28,512 nucleotides of DNA from a virus. Position 1 is the first letter of the stretch; every line of letters begins with the position of its first letter. Where the stretch lies: the IMG/VR virus record IMGVR_UViG_3300009159_000235, positions 1 through 28,512 of that record; one strand, written 5' to 3'. Below are positions 1 to 15,425 of the stretch, in pieces. The position numbers and the translations under genes are program-made. Under the pieces are notes generated by a model. The model was not told the DNA's origin, ran no database searches, and saw only the letters and a program-made list of their open reading frames with translations.

Positions 1-857
1 ACAAATTCTGGAATCATGCCATAATGCACAAGATCGTCAGGAGTTATAGTTGATAGGTCAACTTCGTTTTCTACAGTCACTGACGCATTGAACCCCATGG
101 CAGTACCAACTTGGCGATGTTTTATTACAGATTCCAGGCCCACAAATGCTCCGCCAGCAATAAACAAAATATTTGAAGTATCAACTTCTACCATGTCAGT
201 GCCTGGATGTTTTCTATTGCCTGCTGCCGAGAAGCGGCAAATGGTGCCTTCTACAATTTTTAGCAAAGCTTGCTGAACGCCCTCGCCCGACACATCTCGG
301 GTAATACTGACACTCTCGCCTTTACGTGCAATTTTATCAATTTCGTCAATAAAAACAATGCCACGTTGTGTACGTGCAATATCATTTCCAGATGCCGCAT
401 ACAGTCGACTGATTAACATTTCTACATCATCGCCAACATATCCGGCTTCAGTAATTGATGTAGCATCAGCAATCACAAAAGGAACATCTAAAAATTTAGC
501 TACAATTTTAGCCAATAAAGTTTTACCTGACCCAGTAGGGCCAATCATGAGTACATTGGCTTTGCTGATATCAGCACCAATACGCTTGAGTCGTTTGTAG
601 TGATTTACCACTGCCACAGCCAGTACAATCTTGGCCTGGTGCTGTCCAATAATATATCGATCCAAGAATTCTTTAAGCTCACGAGGATCATTCTGATTTA
701 CATCAGGATCGGGTAATTTGTCACTTGGGTCTTGTAACAAGTCATCGCATAACTTAACACACTCACTACAAATTGCTACTTTTTCACTGACAATGAGTTT
801 TTGAACATCGTCTTTGTGTTTGTTACAAAAACTACAATTTTCAATAATATCGGACAT
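1..857 (-). CDS. clpX: ATP-dependent protease unfoldase subunit ClpX (3' end outside window)
   Basis: ClpX is the AAA+ unfoldase that recognises tagged proteins and threads them into the ClpP peptidase. About 285 residues are visible from the ATG at 857; the rest runs off the left edge (bacterial ClpX is about 420 aa). The N-terminal zinc-binding domain is intact (C8-x2-C11, C30-x2-C33). Walker A GPTGSGKT is at 106-113, the GYVG pore loop at 139-142 and Walker B with IDE at about 167-172. The [16 protein letters not shown] block, an RKHP loop and IPEF near the edge follow the bacterial protein closely. The IGF loop that docks ClpP would lie outside the window. The start overlaps the stop of the upstream membrane-protein gene (TAATG), so translation is probably coupled. 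ClpX identity is near certain; that it is a phage gene rests on its phage-like neighbours. Confidence 0.96.
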
Positions 858-2347
858 TAAATATTCTTGTTTAATTTTAATTGAATCTCCTGACTCTCGG
901 CGTCAGTTAGGAGGTCTGGATCATACTCGCCTGCTCCAACGGCTGCGATAAGATGATCAATATACGCACTGTCGTATGCATACTGATCGGTAGTGTCTTT
1001 ATCTATCTGTATCCAACGGTCACCATTAAATTTATACAGTTGTGATGGTTGTGGTTGTATATTCAAAAACAAATCTCCACGTTGTGGTGTTTTAGGAAAC
1101 TCTCGACCAAAACTAAAATTATGTTCCACAGCATTGTCTACTACATAATCTTCCCAGGGCAAGTGATCTATAACACCACGCTCGAGCAATTGACGTTGTT
1201 CTTTTAATGTTAGACCTGGGTTGTCTAATTTCCATTGACTACGTGCTTGTTTAAGTCTAGGGTCGTCTTCCTCAACTTCATCTTGTTCTTCTTGTGTGTC
1301 TTCAATTGTGGCTGTGTCGGGGTAGTACACCATGGGCTTGAGATTTTCAAAATGCACAAATGGCTTGTTTAAGTATGCGTGTCGTGTACGGTCAAATTCA
1401 CGAATGACTTCTTCAATTTCGGTGTCACTCATGGGATATGGTTGTTCAACTTCACCAAACATCCATCCTGGTGGTGTGGGGTCTTGTCCGGGTTGCTTGT
1501 CTAATGCGGCAATTTCTTCCGGAGTAAAAGGGCGAAGATCTTTTTCATCAGGCGGCACAATGGCCATGGCCAGTTGATCTTCATTTCGTTTGGCACGTAT
1601 CCATGACATAGATTCTGTTGCAGCCAACAGCATCATCACTGCTAGTGGATCAAATACCACAACCAAAATAATGATCACCCAACGTACTGCTTTTTCTAGT
1701 ACATTAGAGTCAGGGTTGTCATCATATATCAGTGCGGCTATGTATTTGATTGGTCCGACTTCAGCTTCTACTTTGCGTACTTCGGCCGCAATCGGCGCAC
1801 GTTCTTCATTGAGAGATGTGATTTTCTTTTGAGCTTCTGCAATGTCCGCAAGGAGGCGAGCACGTTCTTTCTGCTGGGTTCTGCGTATAGCAACGGCTTT
1901 GTCCGCCCCTTTTTCATCTTGACTGCGACCCATAACTTGGTCCACAGCCTCATCCATTTGTTTGAGTGCTTTGCGATTAGCATCTATGTTTTCCTTTTCG
2001 ATCTTGATCTTTTCATCATACAAGGCAATCTTGGCCTGTACATCACCTGATACCATGCCCTGGTCCATGTGAGCTTTGCTCAAGAAACCAAAGATTCCCA
2101 TGCTGGTAATCAGCATGAGCATGGCCACAGCTGGCACTAGATACAGTTTCATTGTGAGTTTGGCCTGCCGCCAGTATTCATGTAGCCATACTGTCACAAC
2201 AAGTTTGGCCACTTCTAATATACTGCCCATGATAACAATAGGCACCACAGCCGCGGCAAAAATAGCAATCAATCCCATTATGGAATAAAAAGCAGCCACT
2301 GCACTCAAGCACAGGGCCACAAACAACATTAAATACGTCAGTAACAT
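857..2347 (-). CDS. Multi-pass membrane protein with central coiled coil, unknown function
   Basis: This is a 496-aa protein. Three hydrophobic segments lie in the first 90 residues (about 2-20, 24-45 and 68-90), followed by a charged Lys/Glu/Gln-rich stretch (about 100-200) that looks like a coiled coil. A fourth membrane segment containing FDPLAVMMLLAA lies near 222-245, and the acidic hydrophilic tail runs to the end. I know similar proteins from T4-like phages of marine and freshwater bacteria, where they are called conserved membrane proteins; no function is established that I can name. It lies between a small unknown gene and clpX and overlaps clpX by 1 nt. A role in the host envelope during infection is inference. 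Its ATG is preceded by a TAAATA motif that also overlaps the upstream gene's stop. Confidence 0.85.
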   Translation of the reverse strand: MLLTYLMLFVALCLSAVAAFYSIMGLIAIFAAAVVPIVIMGSILEVAKLVVTVWLHEYWRQAKLTMKLYLVPAVAMLMLITSMGIFGFLSKAHMDQGMVSGDVQAKIALYDEKIKIEKENIDANRKALKQMDEAVDQVMGRSQDEKGADKAVAIRRTQQKERARLLADIAEAQKKITSLNEERAPIAAEVRKVEAEVGPIKYIAALIYDDNPDSNVLEKAVRWVIIILVVVFDPLAVMMLLAATESMSWIRAKRNEDQLAMAIVPPDEKDLRPFTPEEIAALDKQPGQDPTPPGWMFGEVEQPYPMSDTEIEEVIREFDRTRHAYLNKPFVHFENLKPMVYYPDTATIEDTQEEQDEVEEDDPRLKQARSQWKLDNPGLTLKEQRQLLERGVIDHLPWEDYVVDNAVEHNFSFGREFPKTPQRGDLFLNIQPQPSQLYKFNGDRWIQIDKDTTDQYAYDSAYIDHLIAAVGAGEYDPDLLTDAESQEIQLKLNKNI

Positions 2348-2353
2348 AACAAA

Positions 2354-2650
2354 TTATTTATCGGAATTTAACTTGGAATCACTTTGCACTTGTATGCTGT
2401 GTTTAACTGAAACCCAGGTGGCAAACTTGGGATCAGGCACTTCAAACCAAACCAACTGCTGTTTACGTGTGTGCCGGTGATTGTATGTTTCTAGCTTGCG
2501 TCTGACCTTGGGCTGGCACTTCCAATTTTTACCAAACCAGGTTCGACACTCGGCCATGACAGCATACCATTGCTTTTCATCGCTGAGTGCAAACCAAAAA
2601 CGATGCAGATCCTGGGCCGTTTCTTTAAGTGGATCAAGTGACTTCGACAT
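2354..2650 (-). CDS. Small tryptophan-rich protein of unknown function
   Basis: This 98-aa protein is not recognised. It is basic and rich in Trp, Lys and Arg, with a run of aromatic residues (HRFWFAL near 16-22) and WFGKNW near 38-43. No signal peptide or membrane segment is visible. It is the first gene downstream of the structured 2680-2906 segment and its promoter, so it is probably expressed from that promoter with the membrane protein and clpX. GGAG lies about 17 nt before the ATG, which is far for a ribosome binding site, so the start is moderately sure. It ends 6 nt before the membrane-protein gene. Confidence 0.7.
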   Translation of the reverse strand: MSKSLDPLKETAQDLHRFWFALSDEKQWYAVMAECRTWFGKNWKCQPKVRRKLETYNHRHTRKQQLVWFEVPDPKFATWVSVKHSIQVQSDSKLNSDK

Positions 2651-2679: not shown

Positions 2680-2906
2680 TTACAAATGCTTTACACCTTG
2701 CCGCCCCTATTGAGGCTTACTCCCAACCCTAGAGGTACTCCCCGAGTACGTAGTTGGTTGGTTTTAACTTGGCTATTTCACAGCGGCTATCCAAGTCCGG
2801 AGGTGCCACACCTTGAGGAGTTACGGTTACTTGTGCCACGGGGATCAACTGCATGGTTACATGCTGTCATACCCTTAACCCCCCTCCATAATCTCCCGAT
2901 CACTGC
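2680..2906 (-). ncRNA. Candidate structured non-coding RNA or long structured 5' leader
   Basis: No convincing gene covers this stretch, yet on the minus strand it holds a chain of good helices just below a sigma70-type promoter. Helix 1 pairs 2896-2886 with 2826-2817 (10 bp, one bulged A) and encloses a GCATG/CATGC hairpin at 2864-2851. An 11-13 nt hairpin AGGTG-TGG-CACCT is at 2813-2801. ACTTGG pairs with CCAAGT over 2796-2767. CCAACC (2761-2756) and GGTTGG (2728-2723) flank a perfect GTACTC-GGG-GAGTAC hairpin at 2749-2735. A last hairpin GCCTC-AATA-GGGGC is at 2716-2703. GCCGC in the loop of the third helix could pair with GCGGC at the end as a pseudoknot. I do not recognise it as tmRNA, RNase P RNA, 6S, SRP RNA or a tRNA. 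No terminator separates it from the gene at 2650, so it may instead be a leader. Ends are estimates. Confidence 0.55.
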
Positions 2907-2912
2907 ACATGT

Positions 2913-2941
2913 ATTTTAGCAGATTTATTTGTGTAATGCAA
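2913..2941 (-). promoter_or_regulatory. Sigma70-type promoter for the structured RNA and the clpX operon
   Basis: On the minus strand, TTGCAT (2941-2936) and TAAAAT (2918-2913) are spaced by exactly 17 nt. A start is expected near 2906. It sits directly after the terminator that closes the upstream operon, so it starts a new transcription unit. Confidence 0.7.
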
Positions 2942-2968
2942 ATAAAAAAGCCGCATAATGCGGCTTTT
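2940..2968 (-). terminator. Rho-independent terminator of the ligase operon
   Basis: AAAAGCCGCA (2968-2959) and TGCGGCTTTT (2955-2946) form a perfect 10-bp stem with a 3-nt loop, followed on the minus strand by TTTATT. It lies 5 nt after the stop of the last operon gene. Confidence 0.9.
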
Positions 2969-2973
2969 GGCAA

Positions 2974-3090
2974 TCATGAAGTTTCTACTATTCGATATTT
3001 AGAATAAGGATACTGTGTCTGCAACCACTCCAAGAGATCGGGTTCCCAGGGCAGATTGATACTGCCATCACAATTGGTTATGTAAATCAT
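2974..3090 (-). CDS. Small protein of 38 aa, last gene of the ligase operon
   Basis: The reading frame ATG at 3090 to TGA at 2974 codes for MIYITNCDGS...YSKYRIVETS. Its ATG overlaps the stop of the upstream gene as ATGA, the same coupling used along this operon, and its stop lies just before the terminator, so it fills the only gap there. The sequence is acidic/aromatic with no membrane segment. Its C-terminus (LEWLQTQYPYSKYRIVETS) resembles that of the 57-aa protein at 5970-6143 (EFLEKYPESEYTIIKETY), suggesting a small phage family. Function unknown. Confidence 0.65.
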   Translation of the reverse strand: MIYITNCDGSINLPWEPDLLEWLQTQYPYSKYRIVETS

Positions 3091-3290
3091 TCTTCATCCT
3101 CAATTCCAAAATGACGTTTGACAGCTCTGCTGGTATTCCAGCCAATATTTTTATATAGATTTTTCTCAATCACCATAGCACATTCCTGAACAATCAACTC
3201 GGCGATTAATTCTACCTTGTCAACTGCCATCCACTTACCGCTAACGTCTGTTCCCACGGTGTCAATTAATTGTTTGATTTGCAAATTCAT
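3087..3290 (-). CDS. Conserved small phage protein, unknown function
   Basis: This is a 67-aa protein. The middle part (ELIVQECAMVIEKN) followed by a short tail with KRHFGIE matches a pattern I know from many small proteins of aquatic phages, usually found in runs of small early genes; its function is not known. No cysteine motif or membrane segment is seen. It overlaps both neighbours by 4 nt (ATGA), which supports the start and its place in the ligase operon. Confidence 0.8.
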   Translation of the reverse strand: MNLQIKQLIDTVGTDVSGKWMAVDKVELIAELIVQECAMVIEKNLYKNIGWNTSRAVKRHFGIEDEE

Positions 3291-3526: not shown

Positions 3527-3747
3527 TATACAAAATTGTATGTTCGATCAAAAATGGGGCCATCACAAATATAAAGCTCGCCATCAACACCTTTCATTAG
3601 ATAGTCTCCAGGTTTGCCTTGTTTGTAATTGCCTTCAAGGGTGTTGACGCGGAACTCCTCGTCAATGCGTTTGGCATGTACCACAATGGGTTTCTTCATG
3701 CAACCTTGCATGCCATCTACTGTTTCAAATGTATCATATGTTTTCAT
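3526..3747 (-). CDS. Small protein with PGDY-type motif, unknown function
   Basis: This is a 73-aa protein. Its C-terminal half holds KPGDYLMKGVDGELYICDGPIF, a pattern (PGDY, GE-Y, C, IF-TY) that recurs in many phage and bacterial small proteins and may belong to the PGDYG family (tentative). The N-terminal half has KKPIVVHAKRIDEEF, also usual in that group. The family's biochemical role is not known to me. It directly follows the ligase gene with an ATGA overlap. Confidence 0.78.
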   Translation of the reverse strand: MKTYDTFETVDGMQGCMKKPIVVHAKRIDEEFRVNTLEGNYKQGKPGDYLMKGVDGELYICDGPIFDRTYNFV

Positions 3748-5117
3748 AATTTTTCTCCTGCTTCAAATCCACGGAATCTCACAAACCTAGGAAACCTTAA
3801 TGAGTACGAGCCATCTTGATTTTGTGTAACTGCATCAGCTTGCACTTCAACTACATTGCCAAGCAAGTCTGACTGTTCGGCCCAGTAGCTATCACGATCC
3901 CCATCACTAAAACCTGTGCCAACATTAACACGAATATTGCGTTCACTGTCAACTCCTTCACAGATTATAGCACCCAGTCGACCCGCATTGCGACCAGTAC
4001 CTTCTTCAAATCCCACAATGTTTAAATCCACTGTGATTGTAGGTTTCCATTTCATCCAAAAGTCACTGCGTTTACACTCGTATGGAGCGTCAACACTCTT
4101 GATCATGATACCTTCGTACCCTTGCTCTACTGATGCTTCGGCAAAGCGGCGCATGATGTCGTGGCCTTCAGCTGTGTCCAAGTCCACATTCATGCCAGGC
4201 ATGATACGCAAACAGTCTGTTTCTTCTAGTGCAGTTTTGGCACTGTCGAGCCAGTCAAGACGTTTATGTTGTTGCACATTCCAGTGACCTTCTTTGAGAG
4301 CATCCAAGGGAATGATATCAAATATGTGATATATCATGCCATCTGTCTTGGCATCACTTTTGCGGTGTGCCTGCTTCATGAGCTTTTGAAAAGTTTCACC
4401 CACAATCTCACCATCAAGTACAAAATGGCCGCCAGTACCACGCCCATGTTGAAAATGTTTGCGAGCATCTAACACAGCTTCGGCAACTTGTGGGAAGTTT
4501 TCAAACACCTTGCCATTGCGACTGTATAGTGTACAACTGGCTCCCGATACAACTGCTAGCACACGCACACCATCAAGCTTGACTTCAAGTCGCTTGGTGC
4601 CACGTAACTTTTTGGGTTGGTCCGTTGAATCTTGTGCCAGCTGACAAGTAAATACCGGGATCTTGTATTCTGTTTTGCCCAAGACCTTGTTAAGTGTTTT
4701 CTCGCTAATGCCGCATCGCAAGTCTTTACGGATCACACGAGCACACAAGTTGTTCCATTCATCACTGTCAAACAGTTCTGCGCATTCTTGTATCTTGTCA
4801 CGTGCACGATGTCCGGTGATACCGCGGGTACGCAGGTCTTCTAACAAGGCCCAAAATCTAGGCCAAGGATTAGGACGGCCGGTGAGATCTTGTGTGTCAG
4901 GTACTTGTTTGACATTGAATGTGTAAAAAGGATTATAAGCTTGAAAGCAATTGAACAAAAAAGCCTGGGCATCGGCACTGCCCAACTTTGAAGCCATCAG
5001 AGCTTTTTCGATTACCTTTTCTTTGTGTATTCGACTGTCAGAGCTTTCTAAATCGCGGATCCAACCTGCCGCCATTACTCCGTCAAACCTTGTGTTGGAA
5101 AAATCTGTTTCATTCAT
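3744..5117 (-). CDS. ATP-dependent DNA ligase, T4 gp30-like
   Basis: This enzyme seals nicks in duplex DNA through an enzyme-AMP step and would join Okazaki fragments and repair breaks during phage replication. From the ATG at 5117 it has 457 aa, close to T4 ligase (487 aa). The adenylation lysine is in motif I, VKLDGVR, at about K180. Motif III is FVLDGEIVG, motif IIIa YHIFDII, motif IV EGIMIKS and motif V WMKWKP, all in the usual order. The helical N-terminal part resembles the DNA-binding domain of this family, and the C-terminal part is the OB-fold. A TTG at 5132, right after the upstream stop, would add five residues; neither start has a strong ribosome binding site. It lies in the middle of the operon run from the promoter at 5.7 kb. 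Confidence 0.95.
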   Translation of the reverse strand: MNETDFSNTRFDGVMAAGWIRDLESSDSRIHKEKVIEKALMASKLGSADAQAFLFNCFQAYNPFYTFNVKQVPDTQDLTGRPNPWPRFWALLEDLRTRGITGHRARDKIQECAELFDSDEWNNLCARVIRKDLRCGISEKTLNKVLGKTEYKIPVFTCQLAQDSTDQPKKLRGTKRLEVKLDGVRVLAVVSGASCTLYSRNGKVFENFPQVAEAVLDARKHFQHGRGTGGHFVLDGEIVGETFQKLMKQAHRKSDAKTDGMIYHIFDIIPLDALKEGHWNVQQHKRLDWLDSAKTALEETDCLRIMPGMNVDLDTAEGHDIMRRFAEASVEQGYEGIMIKSVDAPYECKRSDFWMKWKPTITVDLNIVGFEEGTGRNAGRLGAIICEGVDSERNIRVNVGTGFSDGDRDSYWAEQSDLLGNVVEVQADAVTQNQDGSYSLRFPRFVRFRGFEAGEKL

Positions 5118-5132
5118 ATATTTACTTTTCAA

Positions 5133-7510: not shown

Positions 7511-10500
7511 CTAACTGTTGTTTATTCCAACAGGAACAGTCAAATAATTATTAGGTGCGCCTTGTAAACTGTACACATCTGTATATCCGCCACCAGAATC
7601 TGGGATTTGCCCAGTGGCCGCATTGCTGACAACATAATTTCGGGCGGCAGCTTGGTTGTAAGTAGGCTCAATTTCTACTGCGCAAGCCAGTAATCCCGAC
7701 ACCTGCGGTGCGGCAAAGCTAGTACCGCTATACTTTGCAATGTAGTACGACGTATTTCTTGGATCAGGCACTGGGGCTGGGTAGCCAGCACCAGTTGGAG
7801 CACTGGATGTTAACCAAGAGCTAGTGATATAAGACCCCGGCGCAAACAAGTCTACCCTAGGCCCACAATTGCTAGCACTAGATTTACGATCGCCGCCGCT
7901 GGCAATACTGGCACCAATACTGCCCACACAGATTACATTTTCAGTTGCCACAGGACTAGATCCACGAGTGTAGTATATTGGTATTCCAGAATTGGCTCCT
8001 GTGGCGGTGAGTGTGTTGTTGTAATCAATTTCACCAGGTACAGCAATTCTTGTGTCGTTGTTACCGGCACATCCTATCATGATGATTCCGGCGTTGATAC
8101 ATGCCTGAATGTCTGCATCCATACTGGCATTTTGCAAACTTACAATGCAGTTGCCTGCGCCATCGTTTGTGATGCCGTAGTCGAGCAAGTCCGACAAGGT
8201 GAATGGTCCTGCAATTGTTGCGCCACGATAGGTCAACGAAGTGATATTGCCATAGGGAATTGTATAACGCGAATACCAACTGTTGTTGCAAATAGTGGGA
8301 GTCATGTTGCCTGCGGCACGTTTTTTGTTGTGCCATGCTAGAATATACTTGTAAAGATACAAATATTGTACGCCGCCGGTTACATATTGAGGACTGATGT
8401 TGTAGATATTTGCATTTGGTGCCCAACCTTGTGTGTTGCCTGCTACTACGCCTGCAACAAATGTAGCGTGTCTGCTGTCGTCTGCTGAGTTGGGTGCTGT
8501 GGTCGTAATAGGTGGGTTGTATGTTTGTCCAGCTCCGGGATTGCCGGGGACATCAAGTGCATACCAGTTTACATATTTTACACGGCTACCGCCAGTGCCA
8601 TTGGCGTTGACTGCAAACTCAGGGTGATTGGGATCAATCACAGCGTCAACAATAATAACGTCAACATTTTTTCCACTTGACTTTATGTTAACTGTTCCAG
8701 TTTGATTTGTTGTGCCATCATACCCCCAGTTGGCAACATTAGTGCCCAAGAATGATCGGTACAATCCCCAATTTCGATCAGCAGCCACCAATGTTGCTGC
8801 CTTGCTCCACGCTGTGGAATACCTACTCCATGGTGGCGTAATTGATCTTGATACTGCCGGTCCGGGACTGGGCGCATCGCTTAGTTGTGTGTCTAGCTGT
8901 AGTCCGGCATCTTGTAATGCGGCAAGATTAATGCCTTCTCTCATGCTAGCAACAATGCTTTGTCCACTAAGGGTGGCAGGATTTGCAACTGCATTTAGAT
9001 ATTCACTTGCGCCACCAGGAGCAACAGCCACACCGTAATCATGCAGACCAGCCGCAAAGCTCATGGCCGCCGAAGAAGAATTTCCAACAATATTGCCAAA
9101 GTCAACCAACGCCGAAGTTTGATTTTGTGCTTGTGTTATCAATGAAGATATAACATTGCCCCAAGAAGAATTGGCTCGGCTAACTTCACTAGAGTTATTG
9201 GCAACTATGCTTGTGATGGCTGTGTTGGCAGCTGGTAGTAGACCGGTTTCAAATGCATCGTCCCAGCTTGCGTATGTTCCGGCACCCGGTCCTGACGGAA
9301 TAATAACATTTCCAACTGGGCCGCCATATACATTGCCCAAGGTACCTAACATGTTGTTGTAGCACAAGGACAAGGTGTATAAAGAATTAGCTGTTTGTAA
9401 ATTAGATATAGAATTAGATACTGTGCTTAAATTACCGTTTAGAATGTATCCAGTGCCAGCGCCAATTATATCTACCAACAATATTGTACCATTTGGTCCG
9501 CTACCTTCTCCCAATTGAGATTGATAAAAAGTTTTAACGCTTGCGGGAACAGGAGTAACAAGATTTGCAATAGCCGAAAGGTTGCCAATACTTTGTGTGA
9601 CTCTCATGGCCGCACTCAATGCTGGCAGTGTGGTATTGGCAATGCGTTTGATCTGTTGCAATCCACGTGCCAGGGCTTTGTTGGCCACTGCTTGGTCTGG
9701 TGGTATTATCAACTTTAGTGTGGACAAACTATTGGTGTTATTAGGTCCAGTATAAGCCGCAACAGATGGGTTGCTCAACACTGGCTCAAGAGCTGTGTTA
9801 ATGGCTCCATTTGACAGGTACACCGGGGCTAAATTGGTTGTGGTAGGACAGAGCAATGTTTTATATGCTGTTGGCAATATCTGTTTAGGATTCAGCAACT
9901 GACCTAGATTGGTTATGCCAGTAACAGTAACTCCCAAAACAGTCAATGCCTGCGTCAACAAGTCACCAGTCACTGCGGTTAACACTGCATAAGCGGCTTT
10001 TTCTTCTTGAGATGATAAATCATCTACACCTTTACTTAATGAACTAATTTTTGTATTTGGTATTCCAGCCGCTTGTAACAACTCACTTATAGCGGGTAAC
10101 CCGCCATTGGTTACTCGACCTATTTGTGCTATTAGTTCACCGGGTAGCCCAAGATCATCGAGGTTAGCTAATGAAATCAACTGTCCTAGGTTGGCAAAAT
10201 CTGCGCCAAGCACAGACGAATTATTAGTAACTTGATTTATTCCACCAGTGCTGAGTGTGTCCATTCCACCAGTAGCAGGATCAAATGTTTGTGCTAGGAT
10301 ATCAGCATTCTTTACAGAATTCAACAGTTGATTGGCCTGTGCTACATATCCATCAGCTGACTGGAACACTTGACAAAACTTTGTCAGGTCACCATTGCCC
10401 ATTATCTCAGATATGTCATATTTGATTGCATCCGAAACTAGATAAATGTTGGCCGCAATATTGGCCGGTGTGCCGCTGACCAAGATATTGGCTATTACGT

Positions 10501-10771
10501 TACCCGGGGTTATGGTATCTGTCAAGGCAGGAAAATTACTAGCACCCAGTGTGATAATGCCAGACAAAGTAGAAGAAGAAATGTTGTTGGCTGCCGCTTC
10601 AATAACAGCAGAATTGACAACTGTTATTACATTTGAAACGAAAGGCAACCCACTGTAACGATCAACTGCCGCGGTATTGGCTACTATAGCAGTACCGACA
10701 TCACCGGGGGGATTTGGTAACAGCCCAGCCCCGGCAATGGACATTACACTAGATAACTGCCCCACAATCAA
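7511..10771 (-). CDS. Large virion-type protein with C-terminal subtilisin-like (S8) protease domain
   Basis: This is a 1086-aa protein. The first 640 or so residues are Ala/Asn/Ser/Thr/Leu-rich with no recognised domain. Residues from about 690 to the end form an S8 domain: catalytic Asp in IIVDAVID (D709), His in SRHATFVAG (H768), oxyanion Asn in CAGNND (N904) and Ser in GTSFAAP (S1018), so the triad is complete, although the usual D-S/T-G is D-A-V. No signal peptide is visible. Similar S8 proteins occur in T4-like cyanophages, but their role is not settled. The gene starts at a TTG overlapping the stop of the PAAR gene; the ATG at 10744 is the alternative. The coupling suggests it may work with the spike tip, for example as a tail-associated protease acting on the host envelope or as a protease for virion maturation (inference). 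Confidence 0.88.
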   Translation of the reverse strand: MIVGQLSSVMSIAGAGLLPNPPGDVGTAIVANTAAVDRYSGLPFVSNVITVVNSAVIEAAANNISSSTLSGIITLGASNFPALTDTITPGNVIANILVSGTPANIAANIYLVSDAIKYDISEIMGNGDLTKFCQVFQSADGYVAQANQLLNSVKNADILAQTFDPATGGMDTLSTGGINQVTNNSSVLGADFANLGQLISLANLDDLGLPGELIAQIGRVTNGGLPAISELLQAAGIPNTKISSLSKGVDDLSSQEEKAAYAVLTAVTGDLLTQALTVLGVTVTGITNLGQLLNPKQILPTAYKTLLCPTTTNLAPVYLSNGAINTALEPVLSNPSVAAYTGPNNTNSLSTLKLIIPPDQAVANKALARGLQQIKRIANTTLPALSAAMRVTQSIGNLSAIANLVTPVPASVKTFYQSQLGEGSGPNGTILLVDIIGAGTGYILNGNLSTVSNSISNLQTANSLYTLSLCYNNMLGTLGNVYGGPVGNVIIPSGPGAGTYASWDDAFETGLLPAANTAITSIVANNSSEVSRANSSWGNVISSLITQAQNQTSALVDFGNIVGNSSSAAMSFAAGLHDYGVAVAPGGASEYLNAVANPATLSGQSIVASMREGINLAALQDAGLQLDTQLSDAPSPGPAVSRSITPPWSRYSTAWSKAATLVAADRNWGLYRSFLGTNVANWGYDGTTNQTGTVNIKSSGKNVDVIIVDAVIDPNHPEFAVNANGTGGSRVKYVNWYALDVPGNPGAGQTYNPPITTTAPNSADDSRHATFVAGVVAGNTQGWAPNANIYNISPQYVTGGVQYLYLYKYILAWHNKKRAAGNMTPTICNNSWYSRYTIPYGNITSLTYRGATIAGPFTLSDLLDYGITNDGAGNCIVSLQNASMDADIQACINAGIIMIGCAGNNDTRIAVPGEIDYNNTLTATGANSGIPIYYTRGSSPVATENVICVGSIGASIASGGDRKSSASNCGPRVDLFAPGSYITSSWLTSSAPTGAGYPAPVPDPRNTSYYIAKYSGTSFAAPQVSGLLACAVEIEPTYNQAAARNYVVSNAATGQIPDSGGGYTDVYSLQGAPNNYLTVPVGINNS

Positions 10772-11975: not shown

Positions 11976-13103
11976 TCAAAGACTCAGTCCCGATAATGTT
12001 GTTGAATCTACATCTTGTTTGGTGCCACCAATAACATAAGATGTGATTTCAGTTTCTTGCGGTGCTACTTGTACTTCTGAGCCAGCAATCCATTTAGCAG
12101 TCCAAGGTAAGGGATTGCTGCCGCCTTTGCTTTGCGTCGGTAGCCCCACAGCAGTCATGCGTTTGTGACCAATCCAGTCCACATATTCGCACAACAAATG
12201 TTCGTTGAGTCCAATCATGCTACCGTCTTTGAACAAAAATTTAGCCCAGTTCTTTTCTTGTTGGATTGCAGACTCATACATGGCGACCATTTCACTTTGT
12301 GTTTCTTCACGGATTCGAGCAAAGTCAGGATCATCCCCTGGCAATATCTTTAACAACTGCTGGGTGGATGCCAAGTGTACGTTTTCATCTCGGGCAATGA
12401 ACTTGATGATTTTGGCATTGCCTTCCATCTTTTTAAGTTCAGCAAACGCCCACGAACACGCAAAGCTTACATAGAATCGAATACCCTCAAGCACGTTGAC
12501 GCTGGCTATGGCTAACCAAATTCTGCGTTTGAGTTCATATTCATCAACTGTGATGTCTTTGCCATTTACAACATGATTTCCTACACCCAGTGTTTGGTAC
12601 CACAAGCTGTATTCTATCAAGTCATCATAATACCTGGTGATGTTGTGAGCACAGTCTACAATCTCAGCAATGTCTAACATTTCATCAAATACCCGGCCGG
12701 GGTCCGAGTATACGTTACGAATAAGGTGCGTGTAACTACGACTATGAACTGTTTCGTTAAATGTCCACGTGGTAATCCATGTTTCTAATTCAGGCAATGT
12801 GGTTAATGGCAAGAAACCAAGACTTGGACTGCGACCTTGTACTGAGTCCAGCAAAATTTGTCTTTTCAAATTACTGGTAAAGATATGCTGTTCATATTCA
12901 GTAAGATCTTTAAAGTCCTTGGCATCACGTAGCACATCAACTTCTTCCGGGCGCCAAAAGAATCCCAGTTGTTTGTCAGTGAGTTTGTCAAACTGTCGAT
13001 ACTTCAATGTATCAAATCGTTGCATACCAATGCCGCCTTCGGGGTCAAGGAAGGCTAGGCTTCGTGTATGGTCACGATCCTTTTTTAAATTTAAAACGCT
13101 CAT
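11976..13103 (-). CDS. nrdB: Class Ia ribonucleotide reductase beta subunit
   Basis: NrdB holds the di-iron/tyrosyl radical cofactor that starts radical chemistry in NrdA. This protein has 375 aa as in E. coli NrdB. The iron ligands are present: D86 (LLDSVQGR), E117 and H120 (NETVHSRSY), E206 (VLEGIRFY), E240 and H243 (RDENVHLAS). The radical tyrosine is Y124, so this is a standard class Ia type and not a metal-free or dimanganese variant. It starts 9 nt after the nrdA stop with AGGAT before the ATG. With NrdA and glutaredoxin it supplies dNTPs for phage replication. Confidence 0.97.
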   Translation of the reverse strand: MSVLNLKKDRDHTRSLAFLDPEGGIGMQRFDTLKYRQFDKLTDKQLGFFWRPEEVDVLRDAKDFKDLTEYEQHIFTSNLKRQILLDSVQGRSPSLGFLPLTTLPELETWITTWTFNETVHSRSYTHLIRNVYSDPGRVFDEMLDIAEIVDCAHNITRYYDDLIEYSLWYQTLGVGNHVVNGKDITVDEYELKRRIWLAIASVNVLEGIRFYVSFACSWAFAELKKMEGNAKIIKFIARDENVHLASTQQLLKILPGDDPDFARIREETQSEMVAMYESAIQQEKNWAKFLFKDGSMIGLNEHLLCEYVDWIGHKRMTAVGLPTQSKGGSNPLPWTAKWIAGSEVQVAPQETEITSYVIGGTKQDVDSTTLSGLSL

Positions 13104-13112
13104 GTTATCCTA

Positions 13113-15425
13113 TTATATTGTGCAACTATCGCACTCGGCATCGTCTTGTACTGCAATATTAACCGATTCAGTTAGTACCTGTTTTTGATTTAGTCGATCA
13201 AGGTCAATCTCACCTGATCCATCATATGTGTTAAAGTAGTATAGCTGTTTGCCACCATACTTATAAAACATCACAAGGTGTTTTAACATATCACTCAGTG
13301 GAATCTTTTCATCTTCATAATGTTGAGGATTGTAGCTGGTGTTTACGCTGATGCCTTGATCAATATATTTTTGCAGAACTGCACAGATTTTTAAATAGCC
13401 TTCGGGAGATTTTTGATCCCATAACAACTCGTATTTGTTCTTTAAACGACGGTATTCTGGAACAACTTGTTTGAGTACACCGTCTTTGCTTTGCTTGATT
13501 GAAACATAGCTACGTGGAGGCTCAATGCCGTTTGTGGCATTTGAAATTTGTGCGCTGGTCTCTGCTGGCATCAAAGCCATCAAGGTTGAATTACGAATAC
13601 CAGTGCGCTTGAGTTGTTCACGCAGGCTCGTCCAGTCCACTGCATCAACGTGTGGCACAAGTTCGTCTACTTCACGTTTGTAAGTGTCTACTGGTAACAC
13701 TCCATCATGATATTTGGTTTCATTTGATTTAGGGCAAGCGCCGAATTCTTGCGCAAGATCTGCTGAGGCCTTGATCAAGTAGTAACTCCAATGCTGTGCC
13801 CATTTATCAACCAGCGCCAGTGCGGCAGGGTCGCTATAGCTAACATCATTCTTGGCTAACCAGTAGGCAAGATTGATAATGCCAACACCTAGTGGACGGC
13901 GATTCTCTGTGGCCAATTGTGCAGCCAAGATGGGATAATTTTGATAGGTTAGTAATGCATCTAGTCCACGCACCGCCAATGTACAAGCCTTTTCCATGTC
14001 CTCGGGGTCACGGAACGATCCCCAGTTCAGTGCACTTAATGTGCACAATGCAATCTCGCCCTCGGGGTCGTTGATATCGTTGAGTGGTTTAGTGGGCAAG
14101 TCAATTTCACTGCACAAGTTGCTTTGTCGGATTGGCGCAAGCTCAGGCTTGAAGCTACCGTGACTGTTGGCATGGTCTACATTTTGCAAATAGATACGAC
14201 CAGTGTCTTTGCGTTCTTGCATGAAGCGAGAGAACAACTCCACGGCTGCTATTGTTTTCTTGCGAAGCTTGGTATTGCGTTCGGCTCGTTCGTACAGTTC
14301 ACGGAACTTTTCCACATCTGTATAAAACGCATCAAACATTTCAGGAACATCGTGTGGTGAGAACAAAGTGATATCACCATTGGTCAATAGTCGTTCATAC
14401 ATGACTTTGTTGAACTGCACACCATAGTCCATTTGGCGTACACGATTGTCTTCTGTGCCTTTGTTGTTCTTTAACACTAGAAGATCTTCAACTTCAAGAT
14501 GCCATAGAGGATAGTACAATGTTGCGGCGCCATTACGAACACCGCCTTGCGAGCATGAGCGTGTGGCTGCCTGGAACATTTTGTAGAACGGAATAACGCC
14601 TGTGTGGTAAGCATCACCTGATCGAATAGGTGAACCAATTGCACGAATACGTGCGGCACCAATACCAATGCCGGCCTTTTGACTCACGTACTTCACAATG
14701 CTAGATGTTGTGGCATTGATACTGTCAAGGCTGTCGCCTGTTTCGATCAAAACACAACTGGAGAATTGGCGTTGTGGCGTGCGCACGCCAGCCATGACAG
14801 GAGTAGGCAAACTGATCTGATGAGTAGAGATAGCATCGTAGTAATCACGAATCCAGGTCATGCGTGTGTTCTTGGGGTACTTACCAAACAGCGTGGCTGC
14901 AATCAATGCATAAGCCACTTGCGGTGTTTCAAATATTTGTTTTGTCACACGATTCTGCACAAGGTATTTGCCTCGGAACTGTTCCATGGCAGCATAGGTC
15001 AACTGTTCATCTCGATCGTGCCGAACAAATCCATTAATACGATCCCACTCTTCTGCGCTATAAGTGTCCAACAGCTCTTTGTCATAAAACCCACTAGCAA
15101 CATTGCGATCAACCAGTTCCTTTATGTGGCAAGGCTGGAATGATCCATACACTTGTTTACGCAAGTGATAGCAAATCAATCTACCAGCTACGTACTGGTA
15201 ATTGGGAGTTTCTTCTGAAATTAAATCAGCCGCACTCTTGATCAGAGTTTCTTGGATACTGGATGTAGGTATTCCATTAAAAAACTGTAAGTGGCTTTTG
15301 ATTTCTACTTCGCTTGCTGAAACTCCTGTGATACCCTCTGTTGCCCAGAACACTACTTGATGTAGTTTTTCTATGTCTAGCGGCTCACGATTGCCGCCCC
15401 GCTTTAGTACGTGGATTTGTGTCAT
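13113..15425 (-). CDS. nrdA: Class Ia ribonucleotide reductase alpha subunit
   Basis: NrdA reduces ribonucleoside diphosphates to deoxy forms. The 770-aa protein has an N-terminal ATP-cone (about 1-90), so the overall activity site is probably kept. The active-site cysteines are C224 (FSSCVLIE), C438 (SNLCSEI) and C461 (ALCTLSAL), with N436 and E440 beside C438. The radical-transfer tyrosines are Y729 and Y730 (QLYYFN). The C-terminal redox pair is C765/C768 (ECDSCTI), one step tighter than the CxxxxC of E. coli. All key residues are intact and no intein or intron is seen. It lies 3 nt after the upstream gene and just before nrdB. Confidence 0.98.
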   Translation of the reverse strand: MTQIHVLKRGGNREPLDIEKLHQVVFWATEGITGVSASEVEIKSHLQFFNGIPTSSIQETLIKSAADLISEETPNYQYVAGRLICYHLRKQVYGSFQPCHIKELVDRNVASGFYDKELLDTYSAEEWDRINGFVRHDRDEQLTYAAMEQFRGKYLVQNRVTKQIFETPQVAYALIAATLFGKYPKNTRMTWIRDYYDAISTHQISLPTPVMAGVRTPQRQFSSCVLIETGDSLDSINATTSSIVKYVSQKAGIGIGAARIRAIGSPIRSGDAYHTGVIPFYKMFQAATRSCSQGGVRNGAATLYYPLWHLEVEDLLVLKNNKGTEDNRVRQMDYGVQFNKVMYERLLTNGDITLFSPHDVPEMFDAFYTDVEKFRELYERAERNTKLRKKTIAAVELFSRFMQERKDTGRIYLQNVDHANSHGSFKPELAPIRQSNLCSEIDLPTKPLNDINDPEGEIALCTLSALNWGSFRDPEDMEKACTLAVRGLDALLTYQNYPILAAQLATENRRPLGVGIINLAYWLAKNDVSYSDPAALALVDKWAQHWSYYLIKASADLAQEFGACPKSNETKYHDGVLPVDTYKREVDELVPHVDAVDWTSLREQLKRTGIRNSTLMALMPAETSAQISNATNGIEPPRSYVSIKQSKDGVLKQVVPEYRRLKNKYELLWDQKSPEGYLKICAVLQKYIDQGISVNTSYNPQHYEDEKIPLSDMLKHLVMFYKYGGKQLYYFNTYDGSGEIDLDRLNQKQVLTESVNIAVQDDAECDSCTI

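Follow-up and report, generated by a model that had tools for sequence, protein, structure and literature searches.

The downstream-peptide/glutamine-II riboswitch of cyanobacteria and cyanophages, a family held in Rfam, is a pseudoknotted leader that lies before a short open reading frame (ORF) and also occurs in phages. Ribosomal-protein operons have autoregulatory leaders, structured RNAs at the ribosome-binding site of an operon encoding a small basic protein, and the put RNA of HK022 and the EAR element are structured RNAs with which a phage or operon transcript begins. Among orphan riboswitch candidates, the yjdF motif is an example of a conserved leader found almost exclusively before one gene family of unknown function (PMC4793209).

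The phage leader described here lies in the window, i.e. the whole 28,512-nt stretch of DNA that was analysed. It is approximately 250 nt long, with two predicted pseudoknots, one fixed target operon and no Rfam match, which distinguishes it from the downstream-peptide/glutamine-II class. Linkage to a single target is shared with the yjdF-type orphans; unlike these, it has no Rfam match and is found, as far as searched, only in large uncultivated phages. Like the ribosomal-protein leaders it is a structured element at the ribosome-binding site of an operon headed by a small basic protein, here termed p98, but p98 is no known ribosomal protein and is only a candidate for binding the leader. The put and EAR RNAs share the position at the 5' end, whereas the phage leader is locked to a start codon, extends into the ORF and has no Rfam similarity to them.

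Searching Rfam 15 at gathering scores gave no matches for the window or ten relatives, and at E<=10 (window, L034 and L095) only terminator-like or chance matches were returned. No tRNA or tmRNA was detected in the window with the ARAGORN model, and these empty searches agree with an earlier note, made by reading the letters alone, which had judged that the element fits none of tRNA, tmRNA, RNase P, 6S or SRP RNA. A T-box leader was considered because UGGUACC stands in the loop of P6 in subfamily II (see below), and was rejected: the motif is not constant (variants include CUGAUAC and UUGGUAG), subfamily I lacks it, neither RF00230 nor any other Rfam family matches, and no terminator follows the element. 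Our searches of the open-access literature turned up neither a phage leader of this sort nor a link to clpX. The element is a conserved folded RNA that consistently occupies the 5' UTR of the same target, and its structure overlaps the Shine-Dalgarno (SD)/AUG expression platform, as seen from covariation in helices P7 and P8, weakly so in the window. By kind it is a structured cis-regulatory leader, of a class that appears to be new and previously uncatalogued.

Genomic context and promoter

The leader occupies a gap between ORFs at 3087-3290 and 2354-2650 of the 28.5-kb virus record, whose main genes lie on the minus strand. Read on that strand, the gap holds an intrinsic terminator, a sigma70-like promoter and then approximately 260 nt without a credible gene. 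The terminator (2946-2968, minus strand; 10-bp stem and T-rich tail) belongs to the upstream gene cluster, from which it is predicted to insulate the leader. Directly after its stem comes the promoter TTGCAT-17-TAAAAT (2913-2941, minus strand, with the -35 box at 2941-2936 and the -10 box at 2918-2913), which the earlier note had already picked out together with its 17-nt spacer. The conserved structured RNA (approximately 2911-2646, minus strand) begins close to the predicted transcript start, reaches the p98 start codon (2650) and enters the ORF slightly, and no terminator separates RNA and ORF.

The assignment of this promoter draws on relatives as well as on its own sequence. A -10 box is present 3-17 nt upstream of the RNA start in all testable copies (54 distinct copies), and 34 of the 54 carry a perfect TTGACA/TATAAT pair. 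The mean number of mismatches is 0.7 in relatives compared with 5.2 in control regions, where every stretch has at least three. In the window's subfamily (window 2946-2968; L114, L115 and L118) the terminator lies immediately beside the promoter's -35 region or overlaps it, and some members seemingly rely on an extended -10 box (TGnTAAAAT).

The view that the gap holds no convincing gene held up, the sole long ORF (77 aa, plus strand, 2686-2919) being without a family match. Across the family, open stretches do not exceed those of shuffled sequences (62.4 against 60.5 codons). For the window's subfamily a conserved upstream mini-ORF (AUG UAU CAA CUC GGA GAU CUC UAA) was also considered and rejected, as its first codon may be AUG, CUG or UUG and its middle codons drift.

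Nearly all relatives carry an ATP-dependent DNA ligase gene (window 3744-5132, minus strand) at a distance of 2-3 kb upstream from the RNA, and genes for the large and small subunits of ribonucleotide reductase are found further upstream (window 11976-15425, minus strand). The window also encodes a 1086-aa protein with a subtilase (Peptidase_S8) domain (7511-10771, minus strand).

Downstream operon

The first gene (2354-2650, minus strand) encodes p98, a basic protein of 98 aa and pI 9.7 that always lies directly downstream of the RNA; the pI is 9.2-10.3 in all members tested. Its AF2 model (pLDDT 81.5) predicts a small beta/alpha fold in the order beta-alpha-alpha-beta-alpha-beta, and no family, PDB-sequence or confident fold match was obtained. 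The second gene (857-2347, minus strand) encodes a putative membrane protein of approximately 490 aa with a weak DUF4407 match. It comes next after p98 in 176 of 186 loci, the other ten having it after a short insertion (eight) or out of view (two). ClpX, identified by zf-C4_ClpX and AAA_2 domain matches, is encoded by the third gene (3-857, minus strand), which is cut by the contig end in the window and follows in 69 of the 71 loci with enough sequence. Relatives of the N-terminal half of the membrane protein occur, all unnamed, in many large phages (XacN1, SCTP-2, Mosig and the 735-kb LR756501); two that were inspected in isolated phages are not adjacent to ClpX.

In most relatives p98 has an N-terminal extension (MSVKIETSALSM...) encoded within the 3' domain of the RNA (L034, L104, L041 and others). 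Members of the window's subfamily have the homologous stretch out of frame or interrupted by a stop, so its nucleotides seem to be kept for the RNA rather than for protein. Phages without the RNA retain the same operon, several of them with a promoter-like sequence directly against the p98 start codon (L029, L134-L155), which gives the RNA the look of a module set between a promoter and this operon. In L134, L143-L149, L151, L155 and L029 it is the -10 box of this sequence that directly precedes the start codon, which suggests leaderless mRNAs for the same operon.

Relatives and distribution

Loci were gathered via neighbouring proteins, via p98 and, independently, via patterns derived from the RNA. 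A profile search detected the element in 194 of the 254 fetched loci, comprising about 70 distinct sequences. In all 189 loci with both parts visible the p98 homologue starts between -5 and +17 nt from the RNA end, the remaining five of the 194 being cut by contig ends. The position of the leader and the gene order are conserved. Even the searches with the RNA sequence alone thus recovered nothing but p98-linked copies. Among 16 large phage records, ten have the RNA, once each and always beside p98, three have p98 without it, and three have neither.

The element is carried by uncultivated phage contigs, several of 200-364 kb, and our searches placed it in large uncultivated phages only. A DNA search of phage isolates and plasmids gave no match. 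Relatives of p98 were found neither in a genome collection of 84,980 bacterial and archaeal species nor, using tblastn, in phage isolates.

Copies split into subfamilies, the window belonging to subfamily I. A covariance model (R1) built from subfamily II only has a single match in the window, at 2909-2623 on the minus strand (62.5 bits, E 5.5e-17; the first p98 codons, which the model includes, supply part of this score). The same model also detects the other subfamily I loci searched.

Predicted structure and covariation

Running RNAalifold on mixed MAFFT alignments gave almost no structure because the subfamilies differ by inserted elements. The subfamilies were therefore split and the helices drawn by hand, giving alignment A4 (subfamily II, 41 non-redundant sequences aligned with MAFFT from sequence only) and alignment A3 (subfamily I including the window, 18 sequences, with pseudoknot PK1 in the structure). 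In A4, 86.0% of cells are paired compared with 73.8% after shuffling, changes on both sides are seen in 33 of 44 pairs, doubly changed cells number 253 against 91.7 +/- 10.6, and the covariation score is 0.393 against 0.197; since cells count sequences and not events, such figures are not probabilities. None of 500 shuffles attained any of five measures, and moving the partner by one column lowered pairing to at most 46%. Pairs from the A4 helices also rank near the top in an unsupervised G-test with APC. In A3, 84.2% of cells are paired (66.1% shuffled). Both subfamilies, taken separately, and the slid controls point to the same predicted fold, and these comparisons bear out the proposal of the earlier note that the gap encodes a candidate new structured phage RNA, as do the R1 match, the promoter and the linkage to p98.

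Folding energy tells a different story. The minus strand of the window is no better than shuffled sequence (z -0.77, not significant), a check by which the earlier note would have given the RNA up, and the family mean is z -0.33. Real family members fold no better than their shuffles, which makes energy the wrong test of refutation here, while covariation, which the same note had proposed to test in homologues, was found in two subfamilies and supports the RNA.

All helices lie on the minus strand. The P2 domain (2817-2887) is made up of P2a (GGAG 2887-2884 with CUCC 2820-2817) and P2b (GGUUA 2880-2876 with UAACC 2829-2825). In subfamily II these are helices 1-2 of A4, 93-94% paired with changes on both sides in seven of eight pairs, and a swap test of P2a in subfamily I gave z=6.3; the exact register of P2 within the window is uncertain. 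Inside it lies hairpin P3 (GCAUG/CAUGC, 2851-2864; A4 helix 3), 5' of the near-invariant motif CCGUGGC (2835-2841). P3 is compensated in eight of ten pairs and 70% paired in subfamily II, and its covariation in subfamily I was not significant by the swap test.

The second domain (2694-2805) is closed by P1, which pairs CACCU 2805-2801 with AGGUG 2698-2694 and is 96.6% paired (A3 helix 1); its counterpart, A4 helix 4, shows CACUG/CAGUG versus CAAGG/UCUGG. It encloses hairpin P5 (GACUUGG/CCAAGUU, 2766-2797; A3 helix 2, six of seven pairs compensated), whose loop bears GCCGC, and hairpin P6 (CCAACC/GGUUGG with inner GUACUC/GAGUAC, 2723-2761; A3 helix 4 and A4 helix 6). PK1 pairs the GCCGC of the P5 loop (2787-2783) with GCGGC in the tail (2704-2700; A3 helix 3). 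In subfamily I 94.4% of its cells are paired and all five pairs have changes on both sides, the variants being GCCGC/GCGGC, GACCG/CGGUC, GCCAC/GUGGC, GACUG/CAGUC, GACUU/AAGUC, GGGCC/GGCCC and GCUAC/GUAGC. An alignment-free swap test found none as good in 20,000 permutations.

A second pseudoknot, PK2, is suggested between the GGC(N) of CCGUGGC and (N)GCC at 2718-2714, 3' of P6. Among distinct sequences the pairs are GGCA/UGCC (26), GGCU/AGCC (9), GGCG/CGCC (2) and GACA/UGUC (1), with A-U, U-A and G-C exchanged for one another and GAC/GUC as the one double change. Support is best in subfamily II, and the window keeps three pairs (GGC/GCC). The near-invariant unpaired motifs of this double-pseudoknot fold are CCGUGGC, AGGUGnGRCAC and GUGAAAG.

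The 3' part contains hairpin P7 (GCAUU-UGU-AAUGU, 2677-2689; A3 helix 5, 96.9%, and A4 helix 7), which lies 3' of the conserved GUGnAAAG, and the weak hairpin P8 (GGAGAU(CUCU..)AUGUC, 2646-2668), which takes in the SD-like GGAGA region and the start codon. In most relatives P7 holds the Shine-Dalgarno sequence and the AUG. In subfamily II the SD, AAAGGA, is placed together with an AUG within or next to this hairpin, and the middle pair of P7 couples a base of the SD with one of the second codon (A-U 26, U-A 9, G-U 6). P8 is 94.5% paired in subfamily II (A4 helix 8), compensated in four of four pairs and situated within coding sequence, with a family-wide swap test of z=9.8; in the window it is weak, with 3 bp only between GGAGAU and AUGUC.

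The earlier note had drawn several of these elements from a single sequence, and its reading of the RNA went astray only in details of the local folding. Its hairpins at 2796-2767 and 2761-2723 are the conserved P5 and P6, and its loop-to-tail pseudoknot is PK1. Two further hairpins are not conserved, that at 2813-2801 (GGUG/CACC) being displaced by the long-range P1 and that at 2716-2703 overlapping a PK1 strand. The helix of about 10 bp which it placed around a domain, taken here as the MFE pairing of approximately 2883-2875 with 2848-2840, competes with P2, the pairing that relatives support.

Possible modes of action

We think it probable that the element is a structured 5' leader RNA of a new class, acting in cis to govern translation of the p98-membrane protein-ClpX operon. 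Host-type sigma70 RNA polymerase would start just upstream of the leader, which would span the entire stretch from transcript start to p98 start codon and fold into a compact, multi-helix, pseudoknotted domain, with P7 and P8 enclosing the ribosome-binding site and/or the start codon. Whether the 3' part is folded or open, under some signal, would set initiation at p98, and through the polycistronic mRNA this control would extend to the membrane protein and ClpX. The signal may come from a small molecule, from p98 itself, from temperature or from the transcription machinery. What the sequences show is the existence, fold and position of the RNA, a promoter-like sequence and a conserved gene order; translational control, the sensing of a signal and switching between folds are inferred.

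Several observations argue for such translational gating. Covariation is seen in two subfamilies with both controls and in alignment-free swap tests, reaches the SD and second codon in P7, and continues inside the coding region in P8. All 189 complete copies end at the p98 start with no intervening terminator, the ten large phage records with the RNA hold a single copy and never without p98, and the subfamily II model recovers the window element together with the remaining subfamily I loci that were searched. The operon persists in phages lacking the RNA, several of which have a promoter-like sequence against the start codon, in line with a leader module that sits between promoter and operon. 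Against this reading, some phages do without the RNA, and in the window's subfamily the SD spacing is long (13 nt in the window, where P8 has 3 bp). P7 and P8 are short (3-4 bp) and would thus be weak repressors by themselves.

The fold could bind a small molecule or ion that infection produces or uses up, and so expose or hide the p98 start. A true riboswitch of this kind, itself one form of the leader reading, is plausible, though we would not bet on it: long near-invariant unpaired motifs in a double-pseudoknot fold are typical of ligand-binding leaders and there is strictly one target gene, but the genes concerned point to no ligand and only one type of operon is controlled. More tentatively, the double-pseudoknot aptamer may define a new riboswitch class of large uncultivated phages which senses an infection-linked metabolite or ion and turns on the ClpX operon.

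In another special case of the leader, p98 itself would bind the RNA and repress its own operon, as ribosomal proteins do. The RNA never occurs without p98, which is basic in every member tested and has a small beta/alpha layout, yet several phages have a p98 of similar charge and no RNA, and the fold search gave no confident RNA-binding match. We regard this autogenous control as rather doubtful.

Processive antitermination, in which the nascent RNA modifies the polymerase so that it reads through operon terminators, like the put RNA or EAR, would suit an RNA that begins where transcription starts, follows a near-perfect promoter and precedes a long operon. Such an element would not need a 3' end fixed to the ORF start and entering the coding region, and no terminator is seen between the RNA and p98, which makes this improbable. 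The earlier note had left the choice between a stand-alone RNA and a leader of the clpX operon, and it is the leader that stood, by its abutment on p98 and the ClpX gene that follows. An RNA acting in trans, whether transcribed together with the operon or cut out of its transcript, is clearly less favoured and similarly improbable. Phages can make abundant stable RNAs, and the fold is elaborate, but there is no terminator or separate 3' end, the RNA is never apart from p98, and its conserved structure crosses the SD, the AUG and the first p98 codons.

An RNA thermometer, with the weak P7 and P8 melting on warming and opening the ribosome site of an operon that encodes the chaperone ClpX, would explain short hairpins over the SD and AUG; it would have no need of a large conserved pseudoknotted core, and we consider it very unlikely. 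Chance hairpins or an unannotated gene, with no functional RNA, would agree with a folding energy no better than shuffled, but are already refuted by the covariation, the 0 of 500 shuffles, the slid controls, the absence of excess coding potential and the R1 match in the window, and have a negligible chance of being correct.

Implications for large phages

An uncatalogued leader precedes the same operon each time, and one gene of that operon encodes a phage version of ClpX, an ATPase that unfolds proteins. Leader RNAs with such depth of covariation often prove to be sensors. A concrete target is provided by some 70 distinct sequences, by a model of the secondary structure that contains two pseudoknots, and by naturally leader-less phages. 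The finding opens the question of how large phages time the takeover of host proteostasis, and may offer a route to a new ligand or RNA-protein pair.
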